From: Nitrospirota bacterium
Lineage (GTDB): Bacteria > Nitrospirota > Thermodesulfovibrionia > Thermodesulfovibrionales > JdFR-88
Direction: 5' to 3'
DNA length: 64,000 nucleotides
Assembly (NCBI GenBank): GCA_021840255.1
Contig: JAKBYX010000001.1
Span: 310,001-374,000 of the forward strand
The stretch's first letter is position 1. Every line of letters starts with the position of its first letter. The notes under the pieces are model-generated. The model was given only the letters and a program-made list of their open reading frames with translations. It was not told where the DNA came from and did no database searches. Made by a program: the position numbers and the translations under genes. Of the stretch, positions 47,917 to 61,113 are shown one piece after another.

Positions 47917-49827
47917 ATGAAAAAATATCTCCTGACGATGTTTTTTGGAACTCTTATTGCCTTGACGTTGGCTGGCAATGCAAAAACCGGAGCGCAAACA
48001 ACAAACACCGCTGACAGCTGCCCTTCTGCTAACAGTTGCATTTCATGCCACAGCGATGCGCAGAAAATGAAGGGGCTTGGCCACCCCGAATTCGCCATGA
48101 CCCTCAAAGAGGTAGCCAGGCAAACGGGCATGCCCGCCTCCTGTGAGATGTGCCACCTTGGCAACCCGGCGGACGGCACCGTTGCCGGCGCGCACAAAGG
48201 GGTTTTGGGGCTGTTAGTGGTCTTTAAAAAAGGGCAGACCGCCGTACCCCGAGGCTCACTGGCCGGGGAGGACAGGCAAGCAATAAAGAGTCTGAGGCCG
48301 CAAGGCCCCTTTGCGGGCACCGCGCTTTTCCCAAGGATAAAGAAGGATGGGAAACTCGTCCCCGATCCAAAAATTGCCGGCCTGCAGTGGCATGACAAGA
48401 ACCCTGGCACTATCGCATTTAATCCCGGCATCGCGCAAAGGACATGCGGCCTCTGCCACCCGGCTGAGGTGAAAAGCTACATGCACAGCACCATGGAGCA
48501 GACAGCGAACATGCGCCAATATGTGACATGGTTCAGCCCTCCGGGCCCTCAAAGTTGCGGTTTATGGACAGCCGGAAAAACGAAACCCGGCAATGAACAT
48601 TTCACGGCGCGCAACATGGGGGAATATAACGCCGTCAGCACCGCCCCGATAAACAGGCTGCAGGCGTTCACCAACCAGAGAAACTGCAACACCTGCCATG
48701 CGGGATGCCTGGACTGCCATTACACGCCTTTTAACAGTAAAGCCGTTAGTGTAAACGGAAAACCCAACACAGCCGGATTGCACACTTTTTCATTTACTCC
48801 TCCTGTGCTGTCATGCATGGGCGGCGGACGGTCGCTGATGTGCCATGCCACCCTCGAAAGGCGCAGAGGGGACGGGTTCATGAAAGGCGTGTTCGCAAGA
48901 AAAGCCGTAGCCGATCCGGACAATCGGAATTCACAGAAATACATCAACACCCCGGATGCCCATTATGCGGCAGGCATAACGTGTGTAGATTGCCACAGCC
49001 AAAACCACAAGACCCAAAACATGGGGGACCTGATAAGAGATCCAGAGCCGTCCCGGTGCGCCGGATGCCATAAGAGGGAAGCGGCCGCACACGGCAGGGG
49101 CGTACATAAAAACCTTTCGTGCGAAGCATGCCACACGTCTTTAGTGGCGGGATATGCCTTCAATTTCTGGGCGCCCGGAATCAGGTTTGGTATAAAAACC
49201 CCGCTGGACAGGCACCAGTTCTATAACGCAAACGCAATGCCTCCGGTCCTCATCAGAAATAAAGCCGGCCGATGGAACCCTTACCATATAGTCCCCCACA
49301 TTTCCTCCAACGTAAAAAAAGAAGAGGTCAGATTTTCGGGACGGCTGCTTTTCAGAGGCAGGCCCGATGTGAACATGGAAAGGCATTATCCCTCCAATGA
49401 TGCCTTTGCCGTTACAGGCGTGTATGAAAGCGGCGGGGACGGGGGCACGGTAATGGCATGGCTGAATGTGGACAAGGTGGCCCACGCGATCACGAAGGCG
49501 AGGAGCTGCGGCAGCTGCCATGGTGCGGGCGGAACGCAAAAAGTAACTGTTGATTATGAATGGATGTCATATCCGGATGCGGCTTACAAGGATGTGCTGG
49601 ACGGCCATTACACTATTGTGGCGGACAGGAAAGGCCTGAGGATAGAGGACATCACGGGAGCGGATGGCAAGACCGCGCCAGCGGGTCTTAGGCCGCTCGC
49701 GGGCAAATGGGACCTGCCCGGCGATTTTTCCATACCGGGAATCAAGGACAAAAAAGAATACGCCAAAGAGAAACGGAGATATGAGCGGATCTTGAAAACG
49801 GGCGGGAAATATCATACGGCGTTCTAG
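47917..49827 (+). CDS. exported nine-heme cytochrome c
   Basis: A 636-residue protein with a signal peptide (about 1-22) and nine CxxCH heme c motifs at about residues 41, 76, 177, 257, 264, 356, 381, 402 and 531. A tenth Cys-His pair, CMGGGRSLMCH (residues 300-310), has an eight-residue gap between the cysteines and may be a non-standard site. The C-terminal region beyond 540 lacks hemes. Multiheme cytochromes of this size carry electrons to periplasmic or extracellular acceptors; I could not assign a named family. It depends on the ResB/CcsB system found elsewhere in the window. No partner genes are adjacent. Confidence 0.88.
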   Translation: MKKYLLTMFFGTLIALTLAGNAKTGAQTTNTADSCPSANSCISCHSDAQKMKGLGHPEFAMTLKEVARQTGMPASCEMCHLGNPADGTVAGAHKGVLGLLVVFKKGQTAVPRGSLAGEDRQAIKSLRPQGPFAGTALFPRIKKDGKLVPDPKIAGLQWHDKNPGTIAFNPGIAQRTCGLCHPAEVKSYMHSTMEQTANMRQYVTWFSPPGPQSCGLWTAGKTKPGNEHFTARNMGEYNAVSTAPINRLQAFTNQRNCNTCHAGCLDCHYTPFNSKAVSVNGKPNTAGLHTFSFTPPVLSCMGGGRSLMCHATLERRRGDGFMKGVFARKAVADPDNRNSQKYINTPDAHYAAGITCVDCHSQNHKTQNMGDLIRDPEPSRCAGCHKREAAAHGRGVHKNLSCEACHTSLVAGYAFNFWAPGIRFGIKTPLDRHQFYNANAMPPVLIRNKAGRWNPYHIVPHISSNVKKEEVRFSGRLLFRGRPDVNMERHYPSNDAFAVTGVYESGGDGGTVMAWLNVDKVAHAITKARSCGSCHGAGGTQKVTVDYEWMSYPDAAYKDVLDGHYTIVADRKGLRIEDITGADGKTAPAGLRPLAGKWDLPGDFSIPGIKDKKEYAKEKRRYERILKTGGKYHTAF

Positions 49828-50555: not shown

Positions 50556-50861
50556 TTACGCTTGCGCGCGTCTTTTCGGCACAAATTTGATCTGCACCTC
50601 ATAGCCCAGGGCATGAGCGACTTTTTTGAGAGTCGTAAATGAAGCCCTTCCATAACCAGGGGATTCAAGTCTTGAGATGGCAGGGGTCTTGGTCCCGATT
50701 TTTCGCGCGAGTTGGGCCTGCGTCATCCTGGCCTTTGTCCTGGCCCTGATAACCTCGTTTGCGATCTGGAACTCTTCTTTTTGAGCCTCATATTCTTTCT
50801 TGACTCCCTCGTCTTTAAGCCATTCGGATTTTATTTTTTTGAAGTCTTTTAATTTTGCCAT
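50556..50861 (-). CDS. higA: Xre-family antitoxin (HigA type)
   Basis: 101 residues. The C-terminal half is a helix-turn-helix (MTQAQLARKIGTKTPAISRLESPGYG), and the N-terminal half (AKLKDFKKIKSEWLKDEGVKKEYEAQ) likely binds the toxin. AAGGAG is 8 nt before the ATG. It follows the toxin gene by 35 nt, the toxin-first order typical of HigBA. Controls its own promoter with the palindrome at 51231-51248 (inferred). Paralog: decayed copy at 40289. Confidence 0.88.
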   Translation of the reverse strand: MAKLKDFKKIKSEWLKDEGVKKEYEAQKEEFQIANEVIRARTKARMTQAQLARKIGTKTPAISRLESPGYGRASFTTLKKVAHALGYEVQIKFVPKRRAQA

Positions 50862-50896
50862 TGTGTTTTCTCCTTTTTGAAGATGCCACCCTAAGA

Positions 50897-51223
50897 TTAA
50901 TCTCCCAATATCTCCTTCATTCTATCGACTGCCATATCTATTTCTTTTTTCGGTGTCTTTTGCGTTTTCTTAATAAATCCATGCAATAAAACAATCCGCT
51001 GTCCGGTCATCGTAAAATAAAACACTCTCGCTATTCTATCCTTGCCTTTGGCCCTGATCTCAAAGAGCTTTCCACGTATATGTTTTACATAAGGCTCTCT
51101 TACATTTTGGGGTCCGTGCTCGATAAGCAGGTCCGTAATATTAATTATTCTGGCCTTGACGTCCGCCGGTATATCATTGAACCATTCCTCCAGTTTTTCA
51201 TCAACAACCACTGTCCATCCCAC
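50897..51223 (-). CDS. higB: RelE/HigB-type toxin
   Basis: About 108 residues from GTG 51223: VDEKLEEWFNDIPADVKARI, GKLFEIRAKGKDRIARVFYFT, and GQRIVLLHGFIKKTQKTPKKE, the pattern of HigB/GP49-like mRNA-cleaving toxins. GTG 51223 aligns with the decayed paralog (MGWTVVVD / MSWAIVLD). The -10 box ends only 5 nt upstream, so the mRNA would begin at or near the start codon, that is, be nearly leaderless. Confidence 0.86.
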   Translation of the reverse strand: MGWTVVVDEKLEEWFNDIPADVKARIINITDLLIEHGPQNVREPYVKHIRGKLFEIRAKGKDRIARVFYFTMTGQRIVLLHGFIKKTQKTPKKEIDMAVDRMKEILGD

Positions 51224-51228
51224 ATTCA

Positions 51229-51257
51229 ATATTAACAATATTGTTAATTATTTGCAA
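51229..51257 (-). promoter_or_regulatory. promoter and operator of the HigBA pair
   Basis: On the minus strand TTGCAA (51257-51252), 17-nt spacer, TAATAT (51234-51229). The spacer contains the 18-bp perfect palindrome (51231-51248) with core AACAATATTGTT, the same as in front of the decayed locus at 40063. Confidence 0.82.
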
Positions 51258-51398
51258 ATTGGATTTTTTGAAAAAGGCAAAATTCCTTTTTTTAATCCAT
51301 ATCAAATCCGTCCCTTAAATCTATAAATTTCCCCCCCTTCTTTTTCCGTGATATATTTTAAAAAAGCACTGTGCAAATACTCATACCGGAGGTGTGGA

Positions 51399-51989
51399 AT
51401 GGCGATTAGGACGGCTATAAAATGGGAGAACGATTTTGCGTCGGCCCTGGAGAGGGCAAAAAAAGAGAACAAGCCCCTTTTCCATGATTTCTGGTTCGAC
51501 GGCTGACTGGGCTGCGCGGCGATGAATGCGGGTCCGTATTCAGAGGAAAAAGTGCAGAGGTTCCTTGAGGAGGAGTTCGTGCCCTTGAAAAGCCAGTGTT
51601 TCTGGAAGGAACGCACGGAGCTTATGAAACAGTTCGATGTAATATGGACGCCTACCTTCCTTTTCCAGGATGCCGGCGGCAAGGTGCACAGAAAGCTGGT
51701 CGGGGCCCTTCCGTCTGACGATTTCCTGGCGCAGCTGAAAGTGGGCAAGGGGATGGTGTTTCTGGAGATGGAGCGCAACGAGGACGCAATAAAGTGGCTC
51801 CAGATGGCCATCGATGAACACCCGGATGCCGGGGTTGTGCCGGAGGCGGTCTTCTTCCTGGGCGTTGCCAGGTACAAAGCGACCCATGAAGCGGGCGCTC
51901 TGCGGAACATATACGACGCGCTTACGCAAAAATATCCTCAAAGCGAATGGGCGCGCCGCGCACTGCCTTACGCGCAGATACCGGGATAA
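51399..51989 (+). CDS. thioredoxin-like protein with an in-frame TGA: probable selenoprotein (Sec36-x-x-Cys39)
   Basis: ATG 51399 with GGAGG 6 nt upstream opens MAIRTAIKWENDFASALERA then KENKPLFHDFWFDG, followed by TGA at 51504-51506, then LGCAAMNAGPYSEEKV and a full thioredoxin-like body with a cis-Pro in FDVIWTPTFLFQD and a helical C-terminal region, stopping at 51987. The TGA occupies the first Cys of the CxxC motif, giving U-L-G-C. This is exactly where selenocysteine replaces Cys in redox proteins. A hairpin with a GGTC loop at 51523-51542 fits a bacterial SECIS. SelB is encoded at 59221. If TGA is read as a stop, only a downstream fragment from 51522 would be called. Convergent with recO. 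Confidence 0.82.
51523..51542 (+). promoter_or_regulatory. candidate bacterial SECIS hairpin
   Basis: TGAATGCG (51523-51530) pairs with CGTATTCA (51535-51542), eight pairs including one G-U. The apical loop is GGTC (51531-51534). The loop begins 24 nt after the TGA, within the usual range, and has the same GGUC as the Escherichia coli fdhF element, with G in the first two positions as SelB binding needs. All of it lies inside the open frame. Confidence 0.72.
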
Positions 51990-59220: not shown

Positions 59221-61113
59221 TTACAGAAGTCCCTTAAGGGGTTTTCTCGTATCACCCACCCGCATGGTCAGCTTATGGGAATCCAGATATTCAAGATATG
59301 GCAGGGCGTATTTCCTTGTGGTGCCCAGGACGTCCCTGAACTCCGATACGGCCATCTCCGGCTTTTTTGCATAAAACTCCTTGAGCAAGGAGACCATCTT
59401 CTGGAAAACGACGGCGGGAAGATAAAGGGACTCGTTGATCCTCACCAGCGCCCCTTCCTTGTCCATGAGCCTCAGCACGTCCGTGAGCCTTTTTTCGTCC
59501 AGGGCCAGTTTTTTAGCCAGCTCGCTTTTTTCCGGGGGCTGGAACCCGGCGGCCCCAAGCTCCCTGATTATCTTCTCCCTGAGCTGCTCGTCCTTGCCGC
59601 TCAGGGCAGCTTGGAAAGAGGCCAACCTAACGGAATCCTTCTCGGAGACAAGCTCCCGGACCAGGGGCAGCAATCCGGAAAACACCTTCTGGTCCGCTTT
59701 GAGCTCCGCCCTCAACTCCTCCCTGGGAATTCCCGGCCTCAGAGGGTTTTTCTTGTGGAACTGCCCGGCCAGGCTAACGGCGGCCTGCATGAAGGCCGAA
59801 AGGGTGCTGGAGTGCACAAAAAAGGCCCCATCTCCAACCGGGACCACGGCATTCTCTTTCTGCAGCTCCTGAAGCGCCTTGTCCACCTCTTTGACTTCCG
59901 CCCTTATCCACCCTTCAAGCTCCGCCTTGCTGATTGATTTAAGCGCGGAGCTTTTTATCTTCATGGAGAGTTTTTCCTTAAGGGAACCCTTTTCATATAC
60001 CGAAAGGTCTTCAAGACCCATGCTTTTTTTCCTGCGGGCGGGCCTTGGGTCCAGCACGGAGCCCCCGCCCATCGTCTCAAGCGGCGAGAGGCGGCGGACC
60101 ACGAACCTGTCCATGCCCTGGGCCACAACGGGACCGGAAAGCCGGAGCTGGGCATAGGAGGATTCTCCGCTCTTCAGTTCCTGCTTATCATATAGAACCA
60201 CCCTGGCAACCTTCTCCGACGTGCCCAGATGGAAATGCACCCTGGCCCCGCTCTTAATGGTTGGCGCGCCCGCAAGGAGCTCTATTTTCACATCCATGGC
60301 GGAAACGGGCTGGAACCTTCCGGGGCTTACAACAACATCCCCCCTCTCAAGCTCGTCCTTTTCCACCCCCTGAAGGTTAAGGGCCACGCGCTGCCCCGCA
60401 TAGACCTCCTTTACAGGTTTACCGTGGCTTTGAATGCCCCTTATCCTGGTCTCTATCCCCCTGGGCAGTACCTGGACCGGCTCTTCCGCGCGCACCGTCC
60501 CGGAAAGGGCTGTGCCCGTAACCACGGTGCCGAAACCTTTCAGGGTGAAAACCCTGTCCACCGGTAGCCTGAAAAGCCCCCCCGCCTGTTTTTCCTTTAC
60601 GTCCAGGGCGATCTCTTTTATTTTTTCCTTTAAAAGGTCTATGTTCAGCCCGGTCCTGGCCGAAACGGGTATCACGGGGGCGCCCTCAAGGAAGCTGCCT
60701 TTTACAAACTCCCTGGCCTCGCCGGCCACAAGCTCCAGCCAGTCCTTTTCCACCAGGTCCGCCTTTGTGAGGGCCACCAGTCCCCTGCTTATCTTCAGGA
60801 GCTCGCAGATCTGCAGGTGCTCCCGGCTCTGGGGCATTATCCCCTCGTCCGCGGCGATCACAAGGAGCACGATGTCTATCCCTCCAGCCCCGGCAAGCAT
60901 GTTCCTGATGAGCCTTTCATGCCCCGGCACATCCACAATACCCACCGTCAGGCCGGCTTCGGGGTAATCAAGGTTGGCAAAACCCAGGTCAATGGTTATG
61001 CCCCTTTCCTTTTCTTCCTTCAGCCTGTCCGGGTCCGTGCCGGTAAGGGCCTTCACCAGAGTGCTCTTGCCGTGGTCTATATGCCCGGCTGTCCCTAAAA
61101 CCACATAGCGCAT
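59221..61113 (-). CDS. selB: selenocysteine-specific elongation factor SelB
   Basis: About 630 residues. GTP-binding domain with GTAGHIDHGKSTLVKALTG, DPDRLKEEKERGITIDLGF, VDVPGHERLIRNMLAG, and LTKAD; domains II-III; and four C-terminal winged-helix modules from about residue 370 that bind SECIS hairpins. SelB delivers Sec-tRNA to in-frame UGA. ATG 61113 is used: upstream extension is unsupported. Its presence shows the host can read UGA as selenocysteine; selA, selC and selD are not in this window. A TATAAT box lies only 15 nt upstream of the ATG. Confidence 0.95.
   Translation of the reverse strand: MRYVVLGTAGHIDHGKSTLVKALTGTDPDRLKEEKERGITIDLGFANLDYPEAGLTVGIVDVPGHERLIRNMLAGAGGIDIVLLVIAADEGIMPQSREHLQICELLKISRGLVALTKADLVEKDWLELVAGEAREFVKGSFLEGAPVIPVSARTGLNIDLLKEKIKEIALDVKEKQAGGLFRLPVDRVFTLKGFGTVVTGTALSGTVRAEEPVQVLPRGIETRIRGIQSHGKPVKEVYAGQRVALNLQGVEKDELERGDVVVSPGRFQPVSAMDVKIELLAGAPTIKSGARVHFHLGTSEKVARVVLYDKQELKSGESSYAQLRLSGPVVAQGMDRFVVRRLSPLETMGGGSVLDPRPARRKKSMGLEDLSVYEKGSLKEKLSMKIKSSALKSISKAELEGWIRAEVKEVDKALQELQKENAVVPVGDGAFFVHSSTLSAFMQAAVSLAGQFHKKNPLRPGIPREELRAELKADQKVFSGLLPLVRELVSEKDSVRLASFQAALSGKDEQLREKIIRELGAAGFQPPEKSELAKKLALDEKRLTDVLRLMDKEGALVRINESLYLPAVVFQKMVSLLKEFYAKKPEMAVSEFRDVLGTTRKYALPYLEYLDSHKLTMRVGDTRKPLKGLL

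Follow-up and report, generated by a model that had tools for sequence, protein, structure and literature searches.

A gene at positions 51399 to 51989 of the 64,000-nt window (the whole stretch of DNA that was analysed) very probably codes for a cytosolic selenoprotein, in which UGA 51504 is decoded as selenocysteine (Sec) by way of an adjacent hairpin and SelB, and in which Sec36-x-x-Cys39 serves a DsbD-gamma-like oxidoreductase domain that is followed by a TPR-like domain; we refer to it as the Trx-TPR protein. Judged from the sequence and its relatives, insertion of selenocysteine at codon 36 is close to certain; the redox chemistry of an oxidoreductase and the binding of a partner by the TPR-like domain we infer. 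The features concerned are:

51388 to 51392, plus strand: Shine-Dalgarno sequence GGAGG, 6 nt 5' of ATG 51399, read from the sequence.
51399 to 51989, plus strand: predicted selenoprotein gene of 196 residues with Sec at residue 36 and a TAA stop at 51987-51989.
51414 to 51712, plus strand: thioredoxin-like domain of the DsbD-gamma/Thioredoxin_2 type, about residues 6-104 (PF13098, 40 bits; PF13899, 33 bits).
51504 to 51506, plus strand: TGA read as selenocysteine, codon 36, the U of GULGC, at the N-terminal position of the DsbD-gamma CxxC.
51523-51530/51535-51542, plus strand: apical hairpin of a bacterial SECIS, TGAATGCG-GGTC-CGTATTCA, 8 bp with the loop GGUC.
51714 to 51980, plus strand: TPR-like all-helical domain, about residues 106-194, from AlphaFold2 helices and TPR_6.
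59221 to 61113, minus strand: selB, the selenocysteine-specific elongation factor (TIGR00475, 364 bits against a cut-off of 242; SelB-wing_2/3).

The reading frame proposed in the earlier note, with an in-frame TGA at 51504-51506, is borne out: it starts at ATG 51399 behind the GGAGG and stays open to the TAA. Its Sec-read translation begins MAIRTAIKWENDFASALERAKKENKPLFHDFWFDGULGCAAMN..., and GGAGG or AGGAG stands 5' of the ATG in almost all relatives. The same note had described a full thioredoxin body after the TGA, and a thioredoxin domain is indeed found there, but residues ~106-194 form a second, TPR-like helical domain that had been overlooked. Thioredoxin_2 (PF13098) is the best Pfam match, with further matches to Thioredoxin_7 (PF13899) and to DsbD models over their DsbD-gamma portion, and the domain has a WTP motif at residues 83-85, where a cis-proline is expected; the C-terminal domain matches TPR_6 in 24 of 30 family members (E<=0.01). 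An AlphaFold2 model with the family alignment as input (pLDDT 95.8, pTM 0.91) predicts a thioredoxin fold with its active-site helix from residue 37 and WTP at 83-85, followed by six helices (106-123, 127-140, 147-162, 166-178, 183-187, and 189-193) at block pLDDT values of at least 95. The best PDB matches in a Foldseek search are DsbD-gamma (1vrs, the closest, TMt 0.80), DsbH (2ju5), and, third, YbbN/CnoX (3qou). The protein is presumably cytosolic, because neither a hydrophobic N-terminus nor a signal peptide is evident.

The SECIS hairpin lies where it was first placed; 16 nt separate the TGA from the 8-bp stem and 24 nt separate it from the loop. Taken singly, the hairpin says little, since 687 of 20,000 random stretches of the window (~3.4%) have a hairpin of equal or greater length at that position, and single-sequence folding gives thermodynamic z-scores of only -0.3 to -0.9, so the structure is not unusually stable. 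A chance origin is nevertheless dismissed, because the same TGA is present in 32 genomes and the hairpin codons are frozen at synonymous sites. Between the gene and three relatives, pS is 0.00 in the hairpin codons versus 0.61-0.77 in the flanking coding sequence. Subfamily 1 uses one codon only at each of +7, +9, +10, and +11, and subfamily 2 one codon only at each of +9, +10, and +11, the mean major-codon frequency outside the hairpin codons being ~0.6; codon +8 is ACG whenever it codes for Thr in subfamily 1 and is GCA or GCG in subfamily 2. A compensatory A-U/G-C exchange at columns 22-37 splits the subfamilies 13/13, and 90.4% of cells pair versus 16-58% in controls with the partner slid, the covariation evidence consisting of this one pair and one evolutionary split. 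A third subfamily (three rows) has a different hairpin, nearer to the TGA and with a UGG-containing loop, and the Cys forms described below have no such hairpin at the corresponding place. On these codon and pairing patterns, synonymous change in the hairpin is strongly constrained and the hairpin is conserved as RNA.

Homologues were sought in 230 genomes of the same class at a threshold of E<=1e-20. They are present in 31 of these, each with exactly one in-frame TGA, and a genome outside the class (G235) also has a homologue with an in-frame TGA, giving a total of 32 genomes with the Sec form. The TGA is thus retained by all close homologues, in keeping with the original Sec assignment, and its context is U-x-G-C in every case among those read out. 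Purifying selection acts on both sides of the codon, with pN/pS of 0.14-0.23 before and 0.18-0.26 after it. The gene is 73% identical to that of G108 (family f9) and 68% to that of G182 (family f13), but 50% to that of G010 in its own family; the higher identity to the two other families suggests horizontal transfer of the gene within the phylum Nitrospirota. A short-peptide scan of genome contigs yields only two records, both Nitrospirae/Nitrospirales metagenome-assembled genomes, viral contigs contain no Trx-TPR homologue, and plasmids contain distant Trx proteins only.

Five genomes of family f24 (L113-L117) code for full-length, stop-free homologues with the motif CTGC, which match the Sec family at 100% probability over 190 columns in hhalign. 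Cysteine, which the earlier note had proposed to look for at this site, thus stands exactly at the TGA column and does so in a lineage without selA. The selA gene is found in none of the five Cys-form genomes versus 26 of the 32 Sec-form genomes, a contrast that is suggestive and not independent, because the five share one family. In the tree, the Cys clade falls among Sec forms (support 88/89, root uncertain), and from this nesting the Cys forms may descend from a Sec ancestor, the direction not being settled.

Related thioredoxins occur elsewhere in these genomes. G048, which holds the Sec form too, has a stop-free Cys-form Trx-TPR paralogue with the motif RCPVCRQM on contig C10 (L122). There is also a sister family of short thioredoxins (~115-125 aa) with an in-frame TGA in the motif SPTU[GD]AC in several Nitrospirota (L118, L119, L120, and L123), and this family has Cys forms in G271 (L124) and G160 (L125).

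Components of the selenocysteine machinery are present in the source genome. The SelB reported earlier at 59221-61113 stands up, scoring above the TIGR00475 cut-off, and selA (593 bits) and selD (354 bits), which the earlier note had suggested seeking elsewhere in the genome, are both found. The selD gene (L003:1300-2500, source-genome contig C10) has an in-frame TGA of its own at codon 78, the catalytic position (SSCAGUAAKFSP), so the genome has a second selenoprotein, and a textbook one. The tRNA-Sec gene (selC) was not found in the source assembly, which is 76% complete, in a search with RF01852; the lone match over the cut-off (47.8 bits) was rejected, as it is a tRNA-Ser(tga). No tRNA-Sec lies beside the selA or selD of this genome. 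In some Nitrospirae selC is reported to overlap selB (PMC13188914, PMC9312934), and neither an Rfam scan of the window nor a low-threshold scan around selB revealed one there. A genome of the same genus (G007) has a tRNA-Sec with anticodon TCA, and one gene neighboring it aligns with the source genome; the rest of the region is not syntenic, and the absence is therefore not attributable to one gap. G100, G207, and G217, Sec-form genomes with completeness ratings of 91-96%, have neither selA nor a strong tRNA-Sec match, and these genes are assumed to be missing through incomplete assemblies. The Trx-TPR gene adds to the indications that many members of the class use selenocysteine, 174 of the 230 class genomes having a strong tRNA-Sec match.

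If the TGA were a genuine stop, the locus would code for a 35-residue peptide and a second protein beginning at ATG 51522 and lacking the active-site Sec/Cys pair. A standard ORF of 155 aa does begin at 51522, where the earlier note expected ordinary gene calling to start, but this ATG runs into the hairpin, and no clear ribosome-binding site precedes it. Purifying selection is moreover unchanged across the TGA, the codon is invariant in 32 genomes, and relatives without selA carry Cys in its place, making termination here highly improbable. A sequencing error, a pseudogene, or a general recoding of TGA as Trp is less probable still and is refuted in effect: the incompleteness of the source assembly could favor such a reading, but the same TGA recurs in 31 separately assembled class genomes and selection is intact. 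Recoding in particular conflicts with the use of TGA to end genes, the G007 orthologue having both an internal and a terminal TGA, and with the stop-free homologues, which show Cys and not Trp in the aligned column.

Selenocysteine decoding of codon 36 places the protein near a known kind of selenoprotein. Sec-containing 'thiol:disulfide interchange proteins' with PF13098 and a UxxC motif are listed in reviews (PMC13188914 Table 1, WP_011366075.1; PMC9312934), correspond to 'Trx-like 2', cd02953 (PMC2398784), and are carried by Geobacter and Syntrophus (PMC1794560). The Trx-TPR protein has the same Pfam domain and the same UxxC with Sec first, and DsbD-gamma is its closest fold, but these reports name Deltaproteobacteria and marine metagenomes, and a mention of Nitrospirota was not found in them. 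A text search of a 2026 selenoprotein review gave no mention of TPR, and the Trx-TPR architecture was not found in current selenoprotein lists. No NCBIfam model exists for the protein, the best scores being 39 bits (cut-off 330) and 38 bits (cut-off 805). Placed by domain and motif only, the Trx-TPR protein is of the PF13098 UxxC kind and likely constitutes a new subfamily beside the listed proteins.

The cd02953 domain we take to be the DsbD-gamma domain. The C-terminal domain of Escherichia coli DsbD (DsbD-gamma; 1vrs, 2fwe-2fwh) has the thioredoxin fold, and the nucleophile of its CxxC corresponds to Sec36. DsbD-gamma, however, belongs to a membrane electron carrier, of which it forms the periplasmic portion, whereas the Trx-TPR protein is free, has no evident signal peptide, uses Sec rather than Cys, and has a TPR-like extension. 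TsoB (NF045694, rhodanese/DsbD fusion-like) has a DsbD-gamma-like part that matches 30 of 30 family members (best E 3.4e-14), but it is far larger (572 positions) with other domains, and it accounts for the score of 38 bits. The Trx7/PDZ and VPGUxxT selenoproteins (NF041199, NF041382, and NF041383) are thioredoxin-like and score weakly here, but they have the motifs CxxU and VPGUxxT, with other Sec positions and partner domains, and the Trx-TPR protein falls far below their cut-offs.

A more specific version of the preferred reading, and one we consider rather unlikely, is that the protein is a selenium-dependent chaperedoxin similar to CnoX/YbbN, in a previously unlisted Nitrospirota selenoprotein family; its TPR arm would hold unfolded clients while Sec-x-x-Cys would reduce or shield client cysteines in oxidative stress. 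The order of domains is alike, with an N-terminal Trx and then TPR in one protein, the lack of an evident signal peptide indicates a shared cytosolic location, and E. coli YbbN is the third-best Foldseek match; CnoX of Caulobacter works as a reductase (PMC6282202). However, the two domains together superpose badly on YbbN (TMq 0.41, rmsd 12 A), the TPR geometry of CnoX/YbbN (3qou, 3qdn) does not superpose, and the Trx half belongs to another subfamily, being of the DsbD-gamma type and not WCGPC, with no YbbN/CnoX model matched. We know of no Sec form of CnoX/YbbN. Clustering across the relatives examined found no conserved gene neighborhood around the Trx-TPR gene, such as a chaperone gene, and indicates no partner. 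The Leptospirillum TFP2 chaperedoxin was considered as a characterized Cys form and rejected, as it has 110 aa and no TPR (PMC11241051).

Other features of the genomic setting are as follows. A scripted list of further in-frame TGAs in the window contains none that looks convincing on reading. Just upstream of the selenoprotein gene, on the opposite strand (50556-51238, minus), is a toxin-antitoxin-like pair comprising a Gp49/DUF891 protein of the RelE/HigB kind (PF05973, 103 bits) and then a Cro/C1-type HTH protein (HTH_3). A multihaem c-type cytochrome with many CxxCH motifs and matches to MtrC/MtrF-like and Cytochrome_C7 models is coded at 47917-49827 (plus). In a DNA search, a stretch of ~90 bp at L080:5800-5920 of G007 is also found at ~12 places in the source genome (G000), at 72-82% identity.

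Most likely the Trx-TPR protein is a thiol/selenol-disulfide oxidoreductase, which would be made and would act as follows. The hairpin 16 nt past UGA 51504 would bind SelB, encoded ~8 kb away, which would bring Sec-tRNA-Sec, so that translation goes on to the TAA at 51987; we infer these decoding steps because the mechanism is established in E. coli and its sequence requirements are found here. Sec36 corresponds to the nucleophilic cysteine of DsbD-gamma and Cys39 to its resolving cysteine, and the pair sits at the N-terminal end of helix 2. The Sec36 selenolate would then attack a disulfide or oxidized thiol of a partner, Cys39 would resolve the resulting mixed selenide-sulfide, and recharging would come from a system of the thioredoxin-reductase type. 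Binding of the partner protein probably falls to the TPR-like domain.

The active site lies wholly 5' of the start codon that standard gene prediction would pick next, and databases are therefore liable to hold truncated thioredoxin/TPR fragments of this family without the catalytic residue. With a TGA conserved over several subfamilies and a frozen SECIS, the Trx-TPR proteins provide a clean family for selenoprotein models. Set beside the Cys-form orthologues, which come from a lineage that lacks selA, they allow a natural comparison to learn what selenium gives the enzyme.
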